64,000 nucleotides of DNA from Jiella avicenniae (lineage in GTDB: Bacteria > Pseudomonadota > Alphaproteobacteria > Rhizobiales > Rhizobiaceae): NCBI RefSeq assembly GCF_021390325.1, contig NZ_JAJUWU010000003.1:248001-312000 (forward strand), in the 5' to 3' direction. The notes under the pieces were generated by a model. That model saw only the letters and a program-made list of their open reading frames with translations, did no database searches and had not been told where the DNA came from. Below, one piece after another: positions 21,471 to 34,036 of the stretch. Numbering within the stretch: the first letter of the stretch is position 1; each line of letters starts with the position of its first letter. The position numbers were made by a program, and so were the translations under genes.

Positions 21471-23597
21471 TCATTCCGCTGGCAGGACGTTGGCTGCCGG
21501 GGCATGAAGCGAAGGCGTCACCGCCGGCTCCGACGCGGAAGAAGAAACCGCCTCGCCCGTCAGTTCCGCAAAGGCCCGGTCGAGCCAGATTAGATCCGGA
21601 TCGGCGCCGATCGCCAGCGCCCGCGGCGTCTCGCCCGGCTTCGGGACATGCGCGGCCAGTGAGGCCCTGCCGCCGGCGACGTCGAAGCGCAGCCAGCCCC
21701 TGCTCGTCTCGACGATGCCCTTCATCCGGTCGACCCCGCCGGCATGACCGGCGACGACCTCGCCGAGAACGGCGCGGAGGCCATCGGCATCGACCTGTCC
21801 GGAAAGCCGGCGGCTCCAGGACGAAAGGCCGAGACCCGGCTCGTCGTGATGGTGATGGCCGTGGTCGTCGTGGTGGGCATGGCCGCCATGGTGCGCATGG
21901 TCGTGATGGTGGTGGTGCCGATGACCGGCATGGGCGTGGCCGATGTGGCCGGAATCATCGACATGGGCGTGCGGGGCGGTTTCCCGGGGCGCTCTGTGGT
22001 CATGATCGTGCCGTGCGTCGCGGCCATGGCCGGCATGGCCCTGGGTGCGGGGCTCGTGGTCGTGACGATGCTCCGCCAGAGCGTCGGTCGCGGCGGCCCG
22101 ATGATCGTCGGCGGGCTGCGCCGCGGCAGTCCGCTCCGCCTTTCCATGGTCGCCGCGCGCCTTTGCCGCCTGCGCTTGATCGGCGCGTTCCTGCGCCAGT
22201 TCGTCGTCGAGGATGTCGCGGGTCTTGCTTTCCCACTGCGACAGCGCCATCGCCGGATCGACCCCACCCTCGACGATGCCGTAGCGCGCCGTCAGGATCG
22301 TTGCCGCCGGATTCAGCGCCAGCAGCGTCTCGCGGACGGTCTCGATCTCCCCGGCAGAGACCAGGTCGGTCTTGTTGAGGATGAAAACCGGGGCGAGTTT
22401 CGCCTGGATGCGGAAATAGTCCGGCATCCGGGCGAAGTCCCTCAGAAACGCGCCGGCGTCGATGACGGTGTAGAGCCGCAGCGCCTTGGTGAGGCCCGCG
22501 ATCTCCGGCTCGTGCAGCACCCGCAAGAGCGAGGCGACGTCGGCGACGCCGGAGGGTTCGATCAGCACACGCTGCGGCTTGATCCTGGCGACCACCTCGC
22601 GCAGCTGCGCCGACAGGTCCTTCCTCAGCGAACAGCAGATGCAGCCGTTGGAAAGCTCGACGACGTCGGCGCCCTGCCCTTCCAGCAGCGATCCGTCGAT
22701 GCCGAGTTCGCCGAAGTCGTTGACGAGGACGACGGTCTTCACGTTCGGATCGGCTTCGGACAGCATGTGGCGCAGCGTCGTCGTCTTGCCGGCGCCGAGG
22801 AAGCCGACGACGATCTCCGCCTCGAAGGGCTGGCTGGTGCCGCGCGACTTCAGCGCCGGCGACCAGATGGCGCCGGCCGGCATCGGCAGGACGAGCATCC
22901 AGTGTTCGAGGATCGCCAGCGCCATCAGGACGGCGAGGAAGGTGTAGCCCGCCCGCTCGAAGGCGGATGCCCCCTCCGCCATCGCCGCGACGACGAGCAG
23001 CGCGGTGATCACCGTCGAGATGGTGACGGAGAAGGGGAAGAGCAGGTTCATCGAGCGCTTGTTGAGGAAGCCCTTCAAGAATTCGAGATGCTCCGGCAGG
23101 AACTCCTCGTTGAGGTTCCGGACGCCGAAGAAGACGTTGAGCTTGGCGCTCTGGTGCATCCACCAAAGCACCATGAAGGTCCACATGCCGATCTGGTTCG
23201 GGGCGCCCCAGGTCAGCCAGACCACGGCACCGGCGGCGACGATGATCGCCAGCTCGTGATAGAGGCTGGTCTGGACGGCATGGACGAAGTGCGCGAAGCC
23301 CCTGCAGTTCTCCGGACAGGGCTGCTTTCGGGGCCCGGTGACGTAGCCCATGTAGAAGCTCATCTCCTGCCAGCCCCAGGCCAGCAGGCCGAAGGTAAAG
23401 GCCAGATAGGCGCCGGTAATGCTCGCATCCTGCGCCGATCGCTGGAGACCGATCAGCGAGACGGCGAAGATCAGCGTCGCGCCGATCATGGAGTATTTGA
23501 AGGTCCAGCGCGGCAATCCGTCGAGATAGATGATGAGAACCGTCGACGCCCACCAGACGAAAAGCGCGAACAGCGCCGGGTAGAGATATTCGGTCAT
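21471..23597 (-). CDS. puhE: PuhE-CobW fusion: photosynthetic complex assembly protein with metallochaperone GTPase
   Basis: A single 708-residue frame joining two proteins. Residues 1-250 are PuhE (DUF3623, 'photosynthetic complex assembly protein 2'): about seven membrane helices with family motifs CPENCRGFAHFVHAVQTSLYHE, MVLWWMHQSAKLNVFFG and EHWMLVLPMP. Residues 258-680 are a CobW/COG0523 GTPase with Walker A GFLGAGKTTT (265-274), the CICC metal motif (319-322) and NKTD (408-411). Residues 510-584 are extremely His-rich. A CobW C-terminal domain follows (about 590-680). No start codon lies between Pro240 and the Walker A motif, so two separate products are unlikely. It is the last gene of the operon, after acsF. 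The fused GTPase presumably handles a metal for pigment or complex assembly; which metal is unknown. Confidence 0.88.
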   Translation of the reverse strand: MTEYLYPALFALFVWWASTVLIIYLDGLPRWTFKYSMIGATLIFAVSLIGLQRSAQDASITGAYLAFTFGLLAWGWQEMSFYMGYVTGPRKQPCPENCRGFAHFVHAVQTSLYHELAIIVAAGAVVWLTWGAPNQIGMWTFMVLWWMHQSAKLNVFFGVRNLNEEFLPEHLEFLKGFLNKRSMNLLFPFSVTISTVITALLVVAAMAEGASAFERAGYTFLAVLMALAILEHWMLVLPMPAGAIWSPALKSRGTSQPFEAEIVVGFLGAGKTTTLRHMLSEADPNVKTVVLVNDFGELGIDGSLLEGQGADVVELSNGCICCSLRKDLSAQLREVVARIKPQRVLIEPSGVADVASLLRVLHEPEIAGLTKALRLYTVIDAGAFLRDFARMPDYFRIQAKLAPVFILNKTDLVSAGEIETVRETLLALNPAATILTARYGIVEGGVDPAMALSQWESKTRDILDDELAQERADQAQAAKARGDHGKAERTAAAQPADDHRAAATDALAEHRHDHEPRTQGHAGHGRDARHDHDHRAPRETAPHAHVDDSGHIGHAHAGHRHHHHHDHAHHGGHAHHDDHGHHHHDEPGLGLSSWSRRLSGQVDADGLRAVLGEVVAGHAGGVDRMKGIVETSRGWLRFDVAGGRASLAAHVPKPGETPRALAIGADPDLIWLDRAFAELTGEAVSSSASEPAVTPSLHAPAANVLPAE

Positions 23598-23660: not shown

Positions 23661-23789
23661 CGTCATCCTCGGGCTTGTCCCGAGGGTCTCCTGTCGCCCG
23701 TTTCGTCCAATCCGTTTCCGGACGGGCCGTCCGGAAAGGTTTCATCGTGGAGATGGCAGTAGATCCTCGGGACAAGCCCGAGGATGACG
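23661..23789. repeat. Palindromic repeat element between acsF and puhE
   Basis: Two 25-bp arms in perfect inverted orientation (23661-23685 and 23765-23789) enclose about 80 bp. Each arm is itself a hairpin (CCTCGGG-CTTGT-CCCGAGG). This matches the style of dispersed extragenic palindromes that are common in Hyphomicrobiales. It lies inside the operon, so it could affect mRNA stability between the two genes. Confidence 0.75.
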
Positions 23790-23808: not shown

Positions 23809-24897
23809 TCACCACACCGGCACGAGCTTGCTCTCCTCCGGGATCTCGTTCTCGATCACCGGCAGCGTATAGAGCCGCGCGAAGGTGAGCGCGGCGGCCG
23901 CCTTGCCGCGCCAGACCTTGAGCTTGCCGAGGATGCCGCCCTGCTTCGCGGCCGCGTCGATGTCGCGGCTGATCTTCAGGAGCCGGTCGAGGCCGGCCTT
24001 GAAGCGCGGATCGTCGATGTCGAGCATCACCGGAAAGACCTGCCTGGAGATCTCCGAGGTGATCCGGAAAACCTTGAAGCCGTAGTCGGACGGGTCGAGC
24101 CCCAGCGCCTTGTGGAACTCCGGCCGGGCATGGTCGCGGACATACATCGTCGCAAAGACGGCGAGCAGGAAGAAGCGGACCCAGAGCTTGTTGCGCCCCT
24201 CCAGCGTGTGCCTCTCGGCCCGCATCAGCAGCGAGAAGGCCTCGCCGTGGCGGAACTCGTCGTTGCACCACTTCTCGAACCACTTGAAGATCGGGTGGAA
24301 ACGCCGCTCCGGATGCTGTTCCAGATGTCGGAAGATGGTGATGTAGCGGGCGTAGCCGATCTTCTCGGAAAGATAGGTGGCGTAATAGATGAACTTCGGC
24401 TGGAAGAAAGTGTACTTCTTTTCCTTGGTCAGGAAGCCGAGATTGACGCCGATGCCGAACTCCTTCAGCGCATCGTTGATGAAGCCGGCATGGCGGGCCT
24501 CGTCGCGGCTCATATAGGAGAAGAGTTCGCAGATGTCGGGGTTCGTGCCCCGCCGCTTCATCTCCTTGTAAAGGACGCAGCCGGAGAATTCGGCCGTCAG
24601 CGAGGAGACGAGGAAGTCGACGAACTCCTTGCGGAGACCTTCGGGCAGATCGTCGAGGGAGACCTTGTCCCAGTTCTCGTCGCGCTTGAAATGCCCCTTG
24701 TTCGGGTCCGACCGCATCTCGGCGATGAGAGCGTCCCATTCGCGGCGCACGCCCGAGACGTCGACCTTGTCGAGCTTGTCGAAGTCGGTGGTGTAGAAGC
24801 GCGGCGTCAGCAGCGTGTCCTGCTGGGCGATCTTGGTGGTTTCGTTCGGCGCCTCGCGGACCGGGGCCCCGTGGGAGATTCTCGCATGCGCGTTCAT
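23809..24897 (-). CDS. acsF: Mg-protoporphyrin IX monomethyl ester (oxidative) cyclase
   Basis: A 362-residue di-iron enzyme that forms the fifth (E) ring of protochlorophyllide using oxygen. The di-iron ligands are visible in two helix motifs, [10 protein letters not shown] and [11 protein letters not shown], with [11 protein letters not shown] supplying an earlier Glu. ATG 24897 (MNAHARIS) is used because it overlaps the stop of the preceding gene (ATGA). The oxygen-independent cyclase BchE is not in the window, so pigment synthesis here appears oxygen-dependent. It sits between orf100 and puhE. Confidence 0.95.
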
Positions 24898-25196
24898 AGC
24901 GTCGCCCTTTCCGAGAATGAGAATTCGCACAGTTCCATGAATTCGAAGTCGCCGGTCGCCCGCGTCCACTGGCGCTCCAGCCAGCCGGCCCGGCGGATCG
25001 TCGCGCGGCGCCTGAGATAGGCGGTCTGGCCATAGGGCACTTCGACCGGCGCACCGTGGACCAGCACCTCGTCGCCCGGCTCCACCGTCACGCCGCCGTC
25101 GAAGCGGACATGGGCGTGCAGGCTTTCGAAGGTGTTGGAAATCTCGACGGTACAGCAGACCTCCTCGGCCTTCTTCTTCAGCAAGCGATCGATCAT
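24894..25196 (-). CDS. Conserved-type small protein of the puh operon, unknown function
   Basis: A 100-residue soluble protein, [20 protein letters not shown] at its N-terminus. It overlaps both neighbours by ATGA (puhC upstream, acsF downstream), so it is tightly coupled to them. The middle ([19 protein letters not shown]) looks like a small beta-barrel, and the C-terminal part is basic then acidic ([13 protein letters not shown]...[11 protein letters not shown]). A double Cys at residues 14-15 and another near the C-terminus could bind a metal. Proteins of this size are often found at this position in photosynthesis clusters, but I do not know a function. Confidence 0.75.
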
Positions 25197-25705
25197 CTCA
25201 CACCTCTTGTGTTTTCGGCGTCGGCTGCCGGCAGCAGACCGGCGAAAGCCTTGGCCTGCCTCTCGCCGAACGCCCGCAATTCCACCTGCTGGCGGGTTTC
25301 CGGGTCTTCGAGGACCAGTCGCCCGTCCGACTTCAGCGCGAGGACGAAAGCCCCGCCGGCCGGAACGCCCTTGCGGACCCGGTCCCTCGCCAGATTGCGC
25401 AGCGCCTCCACGGCGAAGGCGCCCTCGCCCACCCTGACCGAGATCAGCGGCGCGCGCGTTACGGCGTCGACGACGGCGGCCGAGCCGTCGGCGTGCTCGG
25501 CAAGACGCAGGTCGCGATGGGCGATCGTGCGCATCTGCGGCGTCTCGGCGAGACCGACCCCGGTGGTGCGGCCGGTCGCGATCGAGACGAGAGCGACGAG
25601 GGCCAAGGCCCCGGCGGACATCAGGATCGGCCTCGGGATCGGCTTGTCCGCGTCCGGGCTGATCTTGATCGAGCCGTTGCGGATGGCGGCGGCGAGAGCG
25701 CGCAT
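25193..25705 (-). CDS. puhC: Photosynthetic complex assembly protein PuhC
   Basis: A 170-residue protein with one N-terminal membrane helix ([18 protein letters not shown]) and a periplasmic C-terminal domain containing [18 protein letters not shown] and [20 protein letters not shown]. This is the pattern of the alphaproteobacterial PuhC family, needed for reaction-centre/LH1 assembly. It follows puhB by 12 bp and overlaps the next gene (ATGA). Confidence 0.9.
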
Positions 25706-25717
25706 GGCTGATCTCCC

Positions 25718-26398
25718 CTATGTCGCCGCCGGCTGGGCACCGGCGAAGCCGGCCCGGCCGGTGTCCGCGTCGGACGTGCGCGCCGCGGGCACCGCACCGC
25801 GCTTGCCCCCCTGCGAAGCGGCGAGCGCGTCGGCGACCAGCCGCGCAGCTTCGGCCGCATCCGGGACGGCGCGCAGCATCGGCTCCGCCGCGCCGAACTT
25901 CCACGGCCGGGCATAGGGCCAGAGCTGGAAATAGGAGGGCCGGCCGTTCCTCGGGATCGTCAGCGGTATGTCGCCGGTCCCGTCCGCATTCAGCCTGACC
26001 GCCGCATGATCGACGTGCGCGAGCGGAATGTTCAGCTGGGCCGGCAGCGCGACGCCGTAGCGCATCACCAGCCGCCGGCTGGTGAGGGTGAACCGCGTCG
26101 CGCGGGCCGTCAGAAAGGCCAGAAGCATGATCAGCCCGACGCCGACCCCGAGCGCCGGCAGCAGCGTCGCGGCATCCGCGAAGCCCGCCGCCCACGAGCC
26201 GGTGTCGTGATGGGTCACGCCGACCTTCCAGAGCGCGAAGGCCAGGAACCAGGCGCCGACGAGCTTCAGCCGGTAGGCGCCGAGCGCCAGGCGCCACCAG
26301 TCCGGCCGCGCCTGCCAGAGGATCGTCTCGCCTTTCGGCAGTTCGTCCTGGCTGACCACCGGCTTGATGTCGTCGAATTCGTCCATCTGGGCGCTCAT
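25718..26398 (-). CDS. puhB: Photosynthetic complex assembly protein PuhB
   Basis: A 226-residue membrane protein with two to three N-terminal helices and a PH-like domain (TRFTLTSRRLVMRYGVALPAQLNIPLAHV), the PuhB signature. PuhB assists assembly of the reaction centre and LH1. The start overlaps the puhA stop (ATGA). The last 40 residues are an Ala/Gly-rich tail without recognisable structure. Confidence 0.93.
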   Translation of the reverse strand: MSAQMDEFDDIKPVVSQDELPKGETILWQARPDWWRLALGAYRLKLVGAWFLAFALWKVGVTHHDTGSWAAGFADAATLLPALGVGVGLIMLLAFLTARATRFTLTSRRLVMRYGVALPAQLNIPLAHVDHAAVRLNADGTGDIPLTIPRNGRPSYFQLWPYARPWKFGAAEPMLRAVPDAAEAARLVADALAASQGGKRGAVPAARTSDADTGRAGFAGAQPAAT

Positions 26399-27180
26399 GA
26401 CAGGGCGTCCTCGGTCGGCGAGCCGTCATAGAAGGCGCCGCCGGCGAAATAGCCGTTCAGGCGGTCTTCCTCGCGCATGGTGATCTGGTCGGGGTTGGCG
26501 AGTGCCGGCACCCGCGAGAACTGCGGCCGGGTCAGCGACGAGAAGCGGACGATGCGGCGGGCGGCCCTGATGTCGGCGAACGCGAAGGGAGCGAGCACGC
26601 GCCGTCCGCCGCTCTCGACATTCGCCTCGATCTCCAGATAGCGCGGGAAATATTCGTGGGCGTTGATCCAGACGTCGACGATCGTGCCGACCTCGAGGCC
26701 CTCGCGGCTCATCACGGTCATGCCGATCGGATCGGGATCGGTGCCCTCCAGCCGGTATTGGGGATGGTTGCGCATCGGCGTCAGCTTCAGCGAACCGTCG
26801 ACGGTGAGATCGGGCGTGTCGGCCTTCAGCGCATAGGACGCAGGGCCGATGCCATCGACCAGCGGATCTCCGCTCGGCATGATCGGAGAACCGGGAAACT
26901 CGTAGGCCGAAAAGGCGTTGAGCTCGCGCGGGACCTCCCCACGCGGCACCCTGGTCTCGCCGCCATGCATCAGCCGGAAGACCTTCGGCGACGGCAGCGG
27001 CGGGAAGCCGACCACCTGCACCCTGCCTCCGGTGCGTGTGGTTCGATCGCTCTCGAGCGGATAGCCCTCCCGCTTGTCCTCCCCGCGCAGGTAGTAGACG
27101 AGGCCGAGGAAGAACAGGAAAAACAGGATGACGAGCAGCAAGGGAATATCGAGCTGCTCCGTGAGGGCATAGGCTGGCAA
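26395..27180 (-). CDS. puhA: Photosynthetic reaction centre H subunit
   Basis: A 261-residue H subunit. A single N-terminal helix (PLLLVILFFLFFLGLVYYLR) is followed by the invariant REDKREGYPL-like segment (RGEDKREGYPLESD) and the cytoplasmic PRC-barrel (VGTIVDVWINAHEYFPRYLEI). TTG 27180 is chosen over GTG 27189. It gives the M-P-A opening typical of the family, and AAGGGAG lies 8 nt upstream, whereas the GTG would overlap that Shine-Dalgarno sequence. It sits between lhaA and puhB. Confidence 0.93.
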   Translation of the reverse strand: MPAYALTEQLDIPLLLVILFFLFFLGLVYYLRGEDKREGYPLESDRTTRTGGRVQVVGFPPLPSPKVFRLMHGGETRVPRGEVPRELNAFSAYEFPGSPIMPSGDPLVDGIGPASYALKADTPDLTVDGSLKLTPMRNHPQYRLEGTDPDPIGMTVMSREGLEVGTIVDVWINAHEYFPRYLEIEANVESGGRRVLAPFAFADIRAARRIVRFSSLTRPQFSRVPALANPDQITMREEDRLNGYFAGGAFYDGSPTEDALS

Positions 27181-27207
27181 GACACGCACTCCCTTCGTTT
27201 CGAGCGT

Positions 27208-28698
27208 CTAGTTCGGCAGGTCGGCGAGACCGAAGCGCGCCGCCGGCGCGGCCCTCGGTTCGATCCGACGCGGTTTGACCAGGGGTCCGAGGCAGACGAG
27301 CGCCCCAAAGACGAGAAAGACTTCGACCAGATAGACGACGCTGTATCCGCTGGCCGGGCCCTGAAAGGCCGAGCCGAGCCAGCCGGCATCGGCAAGTCCG
27401 GTGACGGCGTCGCGCAGGAATCCGCCGACGGCGACCGCAAGACCCAGCGCCACGGCCTGAACCGCGCTCCAGGCGCCCAGCGCCAGGCCGCCCCGGCCGT
27501 CGCTGACCATCGCCATGGCGGCGATCAGCATCGACACGGCGAAGAGGCCGCTGCCGAGGCCGATCATCGCCGTGCCGGCGGAAAACACGACGACCGAGCC
27601 GAAAGGCGCCGCCATGATGACTGCGGCAAAGCCCGGCAGGCCGAGCATCAGCCCGACGCCGGCGACGACGTAAGGGTTGCCGCCCCGGCCCATCAGCCGG
27701 GCGGAAACGAAATAGCCGGCGAGACTTCCGGCGGCGAACAATGCCGTCAGCAGTGTCGTCGACCCGACCCCCATGTGCAGCACCGAGCCGCCGTAAGGCT
27801 CGAGCAGGACGTCCTGCATGCCGAAGGCGGCGGTGCCGACGGCCAGCGACGCAAGGAGCCGGTCGAGCCCCTTTTGCCGGCGGAGCGCCTTCAGCGCCGC
27901 GCGGAAGGTTTCCCTGGCCTCGCCGGACGGAGCGAGATCGCGCCGGCGCGGTTCCTGCTTCCATACGGCGATGACGGTAAGCGCGACGGTGAGCATCGCC
28001 GAGCCCTTCAGGACCTCGATCAACTTCAGCGGCGAAAAGTCCGAGAGCATGCGCCCGATGACGATCGCACCGGCGACCATGCCGACGAGCAGCATGGTAT
28101 AGAGCATGGCGACGACCCGCGGGCGCTTGTCCGCCGGGGCGAGGTCGGTGGCGAGCGCCAGACCGGCAGTCTGGACGGTATGGAGGCCGAAGCCGGTCAT
28201 CAGGAAGGCGAGCGTCATGCCCACCTCGCCGTAGATCACCGTTCCCGGCCGGGCCTCGGCGATGATCAACAGCGAGATCGGCATCAGAGCGAGCCCGCCG
28301 AACTGGGTCAGCGCGCCGAACCAGATGTAGGGAACCCGGCGCCAGCCGAGATAGGAGCGATGCGTATCGGACTTGTGGCCGATCAGCGCCCGGGCGGGCG
28401 CCGCAACCAGCGGCAGCGCCATGGCGACGGCGATGATCGAGACGGGAATGCCGAGTTCGATCGCCATCACGCGATTGAGCGTGCCGCCGAGCAGCACCAT
28501 GGTGATGCCGACCGACACCTGGAACAGCGACAGGCGGAACAGCCTGGCGAGCGGCAGATCCGTCGACGCCGCGTCGGCGAACGGCATGATCGACATGATG
28601 AAGCGGCTCATCTGCGCCCGCGCCGCCGCTTCACGCGCCGACATCGGGGCGCGGACGGCGCCCGCCAAAGCCCGTTTGCGTCGCCGAAGGAGCCTCAT
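27208..28698 (-). CDS. lhaA: Light-harvesting complex assembly protein LhaA (PucC family)
   Basis: A 496-residue, 12-helix major-facilitator-like protein of the PucC/LhaA family, which assists insertion of LH1 or delivery of bacteriochlorophyll. Family segments include TLNRVMAIELGIPVSIIA, ARALIGHKSDTHRSYLGWRRVPYIW, AFGMQDVLLEPYGGSVL and GAWSAVQA. The start overlaps the bchM stop (ATGA). It is paralogous to bch2 at 41391-42731 in this window. Confidence 0.95.
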   Translation of the reverse strand: MRLLRRRKRALAGAVRAPMSAREAAARAQMSRFIMSIMPFADAASTDLPLARLFRLSLFQVSVGITMVLLGGTLNRVMAIELGIPVSIIAVAMALPLVAAPARALIGHKSDTHRSYLGWRRVPYIWFGALTQFGGLALMPISLLIIAEARPGTVIYGEVGMTLAFLMTGFGLHTVQTAGLALATDLAPADKRPRVVAMLYTMLLVGMVAGAIVIGRMLSDFSPLKLIEVLKGSAMLTVALTVIAVWKQEPRRRDLAPSGEARETFRAALKALRRQKGLDRLLASLAVGTAAFGMQDVLLEPYGGSVLHMGVGSTTLLTALFAAGSLAGYFVSARLMGRGGNPYVVAGVGLMLGLPGFAAVIMAAPFGSVVVFSAGTAMIGLGSGLFAVSMLIAAMAMVSDGRGGLALGAWSAVQAVALGLAVAVGGFLRDAVTGLADAGWLGSAFQGPASGYSVVYLVEVFLVFGALVCLGPLVKPRRIEPRAAPAARFGLADLPN

Positions 28699-29399
28699 GA
28701 CCGGACGAGCTCCATGCCGTGGGACTTGTAGAAGCCGCTGGTCACCCGACGCTGGCGCTCAAGGCTCCAGCCGGCCAGACCGGGATGACGGTCCAGGCGC
28801 TCGCCGAAACGGTCGGTCGCGACGGGAACGATGGCCGGCGCCCGGTCGCCGCGCGGAAACAGCCGGCCGGCCCGGTGCATCAGGGCCAGCATCGCCGTCT
28901 TCGGCGCGATGGTACAGGCGATCGAGTGGTCGGTTCGGGCCGCGAGCGTCGCGAGAGCGGCGGCGGCGTCGGCCGGCTCGTAATGGATGAGGGAGTCCAT
29001 CAGGACGACATGGTCGAATCGGTCGTGCGAGGATGCCAGCATGTCCCCGGCTTCGAAATGCGCGGCGTGGCCGACGCCCGCCAGTCGGGCGAGATCGCGC
29101 GCATGGGAAATCAGGGTCGGCGAAAGATCGATGCCGACGACATCCGCGCCCCGCGCCGCGAGCGCGATCGACAGTGCCCCGGTTCCGCAGCCGGCGTCGA
29201 GCACCCTCGTACCGCTCAGGTCATCCGGCAGCAGCGAGAGAAGAAACGCCCGCATCTCTTCGCGGCCGGCGCGCACGCTGGCCCGGATACGGCCGAGCGG
29301 CGCGTCGGAGGTGAGCTTCTTCCAGGCATCGGCGGCGGTGCGATCGAAATAGGTCTCGATCTCGCCGCGCCGGATCTCGTAGGTGGCAACGTCGCTCAT
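28695..29399 (-). CDS. bchM: Mg-protoporphyrin IX O-methyltransferase
   Basis: A 234-residue SAM-dependent methyltransferase that makes the Mg-protoporphyrin monomethyl ester, the substrate of AcsF. The SAM site is VLDAGCGTGALSIALAARGADVVGIDLSP. The family C-terminus is recognisable (RVTSGFYKSHGMELVRS). ATG 29399 (MSDVATYEIRRGEIETYFDR) starts 8 nt after the bchL stop; four more residues are possible upstream. Confidence 0.95.
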   Translation of the reverse strand: MSDVATYEIRRGEIETYFDRTAADAWKKLTSDAPLGRIRASVRAGREEMRAFLLSLLPDDLSGTRVLDAGCGTGALSIALAARGADVVGIDLSPTLISHARDLARLAGVGHAAHFEAGDMLASSHDRFDHVVLMDSLIHYEPADAAAALATLAARTDHSIACTIAPKTAMLALMHRAGRLFPRGDRAPAIVPVATDRFGERLDRHPGLAGWSLERQRRVTSGFYKSHGMELVRS

Positions 29400-29407
29400 C
29401 GCCCGCC

Positions 29408-34036
<4,629 letters not shown>

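Follow-up and report, generated by a model that had tools for sequence, protein, structure and literature searches.

The 64,000-nucleotide window analysed here (Jiella avicenniae, contig NZ_JAJUWU010000003.1, positions 248,001 to 312,000) carries a gene, puhE-cobW, in which the photosynthesis-cluster membrane protein PuhE is fused to a complete COG0523/CobW GTPase. The fusion is a real, conserved architecture. Our preferred, tentative reading makes PuhE-CobW a COG0523 metallochaperone anchored in the membrane. Its metal would most likely be Zn(II), and PuhE is probably its own built-in client. To our knowledge, COG0523 GTPases are widespread and few of their clients are known, and we know of no mechanism for PuhE; the natural fusion links the two and gives a concrete starting point for asking how photosystem assembly might depend on metal supply.

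One unbroken frame joins PuhE to a COG0523 GTPase

The frame runs on the minus strand from an ATG at 23597 to a stop codon ending at 21471, with zero internal stops. Its parts, by position in the window, are as follows (TM, transmembrane helix; AF2, AlphaFold2).

21471..23597, minus strand: puhE-cobW fusion gene, 708 aa (open frame, Pfam, NCBIfam)
22839..23597, minus strand: PuhE/DUF3623 half, residues 1-253 (Pfam, AF2 models, charge tally)
23280..23318, minus strand: C94-x3-C98-x4-H103-x2-H106, predicted cytosolic loop 3 and start of TM4, candidate metal site (conservation)
23154..23156, minus strand: fifth candidate-site residue, H148, within TM5 (conservation)
22278..22829, minus strand: COG0523/CobW GTPase domain, residues 257-440
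22782..22805, minus strand: Walker A motif GFLGAGKT, residues 265-272 (sequence, alignments)
22632..22643, minus strand: CICC metal motif, residues 319-322 (sequence, alignments)
22365..22376, minus strand: NKTD guanine-specificity motif, residues 408-411 (sequence, alignment)
21846..22070, minus strand: His-rich linker, predicted disordered, about residues 510-584 (sequence, structure model)
21558..21836, minus strand: CobW_C domain, about residues 588-680 (PF07683)

DUF3623 covers residues 1-253 in a Pfam scan of the whole protein (E 1.9e-106), and the NCBIfam PuhE model TIGR03055 matches residues 7-246 with 317 bits against a cut-off of 164; both the scores and the location in a photosynthesis gene cluster identify this half as PuhE, which is single-copy in the genome. 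AF2 models and the charge tally predict seven TM helices and a cytosolic C-terminus, with nine Lys and Arg residues in the predicted cytosolic loops and none in the periplasmic ones. A fold search with the PuhE half found no informative match among PDB structures; PuhE has been assigned a 7-TM fold other than the TmAT type (PMC12423673). The second half contains a P-loop GTPase of the CobW/HypB/UreG type (Pfam cobW domain, residues 262-435, E 1.7e-42), and CICC in its switch I region supplies the CxCC signature of COG0523. CobW_C went unreported in the whole-protein scan at 1e-3 and scored 29.3 bits against a cut-off of 22 when the C-terminus was scanned alone. Beyond residue 260 the window protein has 37 His; the count ranges from 5 to 46 across whole fusions and is low in L050, L056, L064, L065 and L183.

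An original prediction made from the bare sequence had described one unbroken 708-codon PuhE-GTPase frame with Walker A, CICC and NKTD in its GTPase core, a long His-rich stretch and a CobW C-terminal domain, and all of these are borne out. Its statement that no start codon separates the halves holds in part: none occurs from the end of PuhE to Walker A in the window's frame, but in-frame ATGs lie just ahead of the junction, where the last PuhE helix ends (codons 234 and 239). No Shine-Dalgarno-like sequence was seen by eye before either of them. The suggestion that the fusion holds the GTPase at the membrane agrees with the models, which would put a complete COG0523 GTPase at the cytosolic side of a membrane protein from the photosynthesis cluster. 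The original prediction knew of no description of the fusion, and we likewise found none in the open-access papers searched; it goes unmentioned in the available parts of PMC2770081, PMC7677001, PMC12423673 and PMC10892978. As far as searched, the domain architecture is undescribed.

The fusion recurs in several families

A survey of CobW domains behind PuhE/DUF3623 homologues, proposed with the original prediction, found the fusion in 49 of 181 distinct PuhE proteins after identical cores were merged; 3 others carry a GTPase without CxCC, 11 end in CobW_C without a GTPase (CobW_C-only) and 118 have no extension (median 276 aa in the sample). The 49 comprise 46 read whole, the frameshifted L013, which was entered as fused by hand despite its broken frame, and L075 and L079, cut by contig ends. 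The set left out L005, which duplicates L007, and any core with fewer than 200 aligned columns, such as L076 and L265. Carriers belong to Aurantimonadaceae, Lichenibacterium and Acetobacteraceae, including Acidiphilium and Acidocella, and CxCC was read in frame in 48 of the 52 GTPase-bearing proteins. The fusion is not a sequencing accident.

None of the counts is a prevalence, because the surveys overlap and the scan of named genomes was seeded with the window protein, as was the PuhE sample in part. All ten Jiella genomes have PuhE followed by the GTPase, unbroken in nine and with a frame break inside the GTPase in L013; L053 (Jiella pelagia) shows the same broken frame. The break is likely a sequencing error, because the completeness of the assembly G005 is low (84%) for one of 3 contigs. 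The window's wider family has PuhE in 49 of 394 genomes: 15 fused, 32 read as unfused and 2 (G107, G180) called unfused purely by frame length. The Acidiphilium rubrum family has PuhE in 95 of 299 genomes: 19 with the fusion (one truncated by a contig end), 3 CxCC-less, 10 CobW_C-only and 63 without extension, the last including 3 at contig ends, 2 fragments (G450, G602) and 1 called by frame length (G684). A class-wide draw gave PuhE over cut-off in 27 of 385 genomes, with 3 fused, one of them shared with the A. rubrum family draw (L176 has the same coordinates as L155). The named-genome scan, biased towards fusions by its seed, kept 76 loci of 119 relatives with such names as Aurantimonas, Jiella, Fulvimarina, Lichenibacterium minor, Pararhizobium mangrovi, Acidiphilium rubrum, Acidocella and Lichenicoccus; 47 of these loci hold PuhE, as 39 fusions (L076 with its start cut), 2 end-cut fusions, the frameshifted L053, 2 CxCC-less forms, 1 CobW_C-only form from a Geminicoccaceae metagenome-assembled genome, 1 unfused PuhE and 1 left unresolved.

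Several members of the sample stand apart. The CxCC-less GTPase fusions (L078, L080, L231) retain a Walker A-like motif, NKxD and CobW_C. The CobW_C-only proteins are L213, L216, L218, L220, L223, L226, L227, L235, L251, L252 and L083; four of their tails were scanned alone, and L083 and L213 pass the Pfam cut-off while L220 and L227 fall below it. Besides its fused PuhE, each of the genomes G030, G131 and G199 (Fulvimarina-like by PuhE) contains a short frame with another, divergent match to PuhE. A proteobacterial-type puhE-cobW also sits on contigs labelled Kouleothrix (L056, L079), possibly by a binning error; we take Kouleothrix to be a chloroflexote.

The GTPase is under purifying selection

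Across 17 related genes, the median ratio of nonsynonymous to synonymous substitution rates (dN/dS) was 0.145 for PuhE, 0.173 for the GTPase, 0.35 for CobW_C, 0.39 for the linker and 0.75 for the last 28 residues. The GTPase thus evolves about as slowly as PuhE and is under purifying selection, and Walker A, CxCC and NK.D are invariant or nearly so in alignments of the fused proteins. A dN/dS of 0.17 and the retention of the motifs across families make it highly improbable that the GTPase is a dispensable passenger, an inconsequential fusion now decaying, although the three CxCC-less GTPases and the eleven CobW_C-only forms are what such decay might leave.

When 10 of the 11 CobW_C-only tails were used to build a model, it scored the C-domains of fused proteins at a median of 74 bits and a standalone COG0523 set, which includes two frameshifted Jiella fragments, at a median of 15. 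In a C-domain tree these tails fall inside the fused group with modest support. To judge from sequence, the CobW_C-only tails appear to descend from the fusion, and since they group with the C-domains of fusions, the GTPase is more likely to have been lost than to have been added later. On the PuhE tree, GTPase presence requires at least six changes and the complete five-residue site described below requires four. Most likely the fusion arose once, after which some lineages lost the GTPase and kept CobW_C, or lost both. A search of 60 PuhE genomes found no standalone protein close to the CobW half (best non-fused match 197 bits); within the same genomes, eight CxCC fusions scored 348-531 bits, two of them matched partially, and three CxCC-less ones 199-348.

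A candidate metal site in PuhE accompanies the GTPase

The PuhE half contains five residues, C94, C98, H103, H106 and H148, that may form a metal site. Every one of the 52 GTPase-bearing proteins has all five, compared with 0 of 11 CobW_C-only proteins and 18 of 118 unfused ones. Two of those 18 (L167, L082) reach a contig end and are not counted among the 127 resolved others, of which 16 have the complete site; L204, likewise at a contig end, was kept as unfused. The loop that carries C94 and C98 is predicted to be cytosolic, H103 and H106 mark the cytosolic end of TM4, and the GTPase is predicted to lie on that side of the membrane too. L083, a Geminicoccaceae protein with CobW_C and no GTPase that the PuhE tree places among the fused proteins with modest support, retains two of the five residues and has lost three. 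Cys and His make up 4 of 12 fusion-specific invariant columns versus 4 of 68 others (p 0.015) at a frequency cut-off of 0.4, the cut-offs having been chosen afterwards.

On these grounds we propose a route for the metal. The disordered His-rich linker, variable in length and poor in His in a few members, would gather Zn near the membrane. The G domain with Mg-GTP would then hold the metal at CxCC, a motif observed here whose binding role is suggested by analogy with YjiA, YeiR and CobW. GTP hydrolysis would hand the metal to PuhE at its putative Cys2His2(+His) site, predicted to face the cytosol, and metallated PuhE might tune pigment or reaction-centre assembly, so that assembly would track metal status.

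Several observations weigh against PuhE being metallated by its own GTPase. The site does not need the GTPase, because 16 resolved unfused PuhEs keep all five residues; 11 of these come from the window's own family and lie inside the fused part of the tree, and their genomes hold no close standalone CobW copy. Three PuhEs retain the site beside a GTPase without CxCC. The link between GTPase and site is phylogenetically non-independent, with 2 pairs usable when branches must be well supported and 6 when every branch is accepted, and a sign test on those pairs cannot reach significance. The Cys/His enrichment depends on the cut-off, falling at 0.6 to 4 of 22 versus 4 of 58 (p 0.21), and the site loop is modelled by AF2 with modest confidence (predicted local distance difference test, pLDDT, about 55-73). 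Separately, L018 is an unfused PuhE with a complete site and a short His-rich tail at its end.

The same 16 unfused proteins fit a Zn/GTP sensor, in which the GTPase half would alter PuhE activity according to metal and nucleotide status without delivering metal. The persistence of CobW_C-only and CxCC-less forms would also be expected if the parts were protein-protein modules. We nevertheless consider the sensor rather unlikely, given that CxCC is kept in frame in all but 4 of the 52 GTPase-bearing proteins and that the His-rich linker is common, such stretches having been connected with metallochaperone activity by Haas et al. (PMC2770081). The whole fusion, the CxCC-less GTPase, CobW_C alone and plain PuhE provide natural matched controls.

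The metal is most likely zinc

Young et al. 2021 (PMC7895991) report Co(II) as the metal acquired by CobW, and Zn(II) as that of the COG0523 proteins YeiR and YjiA. YeiR binds Zn(II) tightly and Fe(II) (1 micromolar or weaker) and Mn(II) (weaker than 200 micromolar) weakly, and CobWs have an extra cysteine pair, C56 and C61, that is missing in Zn-preferring homologues (PMC7895991). No Cys occurs in any of the 44 distinct Walker A-to-CxCC stretches of fused proteins, a count that leaves out 7 fused loci without both motifs; the paralogue L002 in the same genome has two Cys there. Among solved structures, the best fold match for the GTPase is Zn(II)-bound YjiA. Since the cobalt-type pair is absent and the Fe and Mn affinities of YeiR are weak, Zn is favoured over Co and iron clients are disfavoured; by analogy with these relatives, the metal is most likely Zn(II).

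Two equivalogs were tried and rejected. For CobW, which supplies Co for B12, TIGR02475 gave 100 bits against a cut-off of 332 and the extra Cys pair was present in 0 of 44 stretches; for the zinc metallochaperone ZigA, NF038288 gave 95.8 bits against 600. The fusion matches no NCBIfam COG0523 equivalog at its cut-off.

The genomic setting and possible iron or magnesium clients

The genes upstream of the fusion, all on the same strand, are the following.

23809..24969, minus strand: acsF, di-iron Mg-protoporphyrin monomethyl ester cyclase, immediate upstream neighbour (NCBIfam)
25193..25705, minus strand: puhC (NCBIfam)
25718..26398, minus strand: puhB (NCBIfam)
26395..27189, minus strand: puhA, reaction-centre H subunit (Pfam, NCBIfam)
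27208..28698, minus strand: lhaA/PUCC-type assembly protein (PF03209)
28695..29411, minus strand: bchM-type Mg-protoporphyrin methyltransferase (PF07109)

The fusion therefore lies directly after the di-iron cyclase gene, as first noticed. The original prediction went on to name AcsF, Mg chelatase or the reaction-centre iron site as clients for iron or magnesium delivery. The nearness of acsF and puhA to the fusion gene fits this proposal, as do bchI-bchD directly 3' of the fusion in L057 and the order puhE, hemA, bchI, bchD in the fused locus L084 (hemA also follows the fusion in A. rubrum, L055). A further parallel lies in the resemblance of CobNST to Mg chelatase. CobNST is a cobalt chelatase of a tetrapyrrole pathway, with CobW as its putative metal supplier (PMC7895991). 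Even so, iron or magnesium delivery appears unlikely. The alternative cyclase BchE is present in 8 of 34 fused and 10 of 32 unfused genomes, and because these frequencies are similar there is no sign of a link to AcsF dependence and no support for AcsF as a client. Mg chelatase fares no better: BchD-like frames are seen both with and without the fusion, and L081, the only unfused locus read for this, also has hemA, bchI and bchD behind puhE. Thiolate sites are in general poor for Mg. The weak Fe(II) and Mn(II) affinities of YeiR count against delivery of Fe (PMC7895991).

The spacer of about 210 bp between acsF and puhE contains a dispersed palindromic repeat (23662-23788, arms GTCATCCTCGGGCTT...). 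A 26-base arm has 50 matches in this genome with at most one mismatch, versus 0 for a control pattern, and the arms often form inverted pairs about 100 bp apart. In G000 the puh-acsF part (contig C24) and the pufL/bchI/bchD part (C34) of the photosynthesis genes sit on different contigs, so the cluster may be split.

A possible link to zinc bacteriochlorophyll

Acidiphilium is known for Zn-bacteriochlorophyll. PuhE is present in 7 of its 13 genomes with a long frame behind it in all 7, 6 read as fusions and 1 cut at a contig start. We also read PufL around a position that we take to be L168, where Glu presumably marks Zn-bacteriochlorophyll organisms: 56 genomes were searched, 55 matched (G405 gave no match) and 54 were read (the split pufL of G418 was not). 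Glu was found in 12 of the 54 (L297, L298, L301, L303-L305, L314-L317, L320, L321), all Acidiphilium or Acidocella-type and all fused, and His in the other 42, 23 of them fused, including the window's genome (FHYNPAH, L331). G410 and G422 each have two pufL matches over cut-off.

Because all 12 Glu-L168 genomes carry it, the fusion is a candidate in Zn-bacteriochlorophyll formation, and a specific gene can be offered for the question of how Zn enters the pigment of Acidiphilium. The manner of zinc incorporation is described as uncertain in a 2025 review (PMC12654162); a 2016 paper recounts that Mg is what the A. rubrum Mg chelatase inserts and that entry of Zn has been proposed to come after dechelation (PMC4944227). 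The correlation is a lead rather than proof, since the Glu-L168 genomes look like one lineage and would then record one event. The fusion is not specific to these organisms, as the 23 fused genomes with His make plain, and Acidisphaera was not identified in the data. It is thus distinctly unlikely that the fusion is the Zn source for the pigment in acidophilic Acetobacteraceae and has another role in other hosts. We give similarly low credence to a combined version, in which a single chain would be both chaperone and client and would control metal insertion at the photosystem: it would metallate PuhE in every host and, in Acidiphilium and Acidocella, would also have been recruited to donate the Zn replacing Mg in bacteriochlorophyll. 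If true, the Zn-donor reading would supply a missing step of natural Zn photosynthesis.

Zinc could instead be a hazard, with the His-rich GTPase acting as a local buffer that keeps Zn off the chelatase, the cyclase or pigments and so prevents mis-metallation. Such mis-metallation is real, because Rba. sphaeroides produces Zn-bacteriochlorophyll in a bchD mutant and in mutants of bchE (PMC4944227), and up to 46 His beyond residue 260 would suit a buffer. Buffering has no need of a GTPase, however, yet this one is about as constrained as PuhE, and several fusions, the five named above, have few His; we regard the proposal as quite improbable. A metallochaperone with PuhE as its probable client remains our preferred reading.

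Comparison with known systems

The fused GTPase shares with the COG0523/CobW proteins YjiA, YeiR, ZigA and CobW a G domain with Walker A, CxCC and NKxD, a His-rich stretch and CobW_C; it differs in sitting behind a 7-TM photosynthesis protein and in being without the cobalt-type cysteine pair. CobW of B12 synthesis, of the same GTPase family, likewise serves a tetrapyrrole pathway (PMC7895991). In contrast to the fused form, it is Co-type and has the extra pair. A precedent for joining chaperone and client is IcmF, titled in the PDB as a fused isobutyryl-CoA mutase. We take the GTPase of IcmF to be of the same superfamily and a chaperone of its mutase, handling a cofactor rather than a metal and serving a soluble client; CobW of B12 synthesis is presumably also soluble and without a 7-TM PuhE half. 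Plain PuhE has the same residues 1-250 and the same puh-acsF cluster setting, whereas the fusion continues into the GTPase and bears a complete C/C/H/H/H site that is rare in unfused PuhE (18 of 118).

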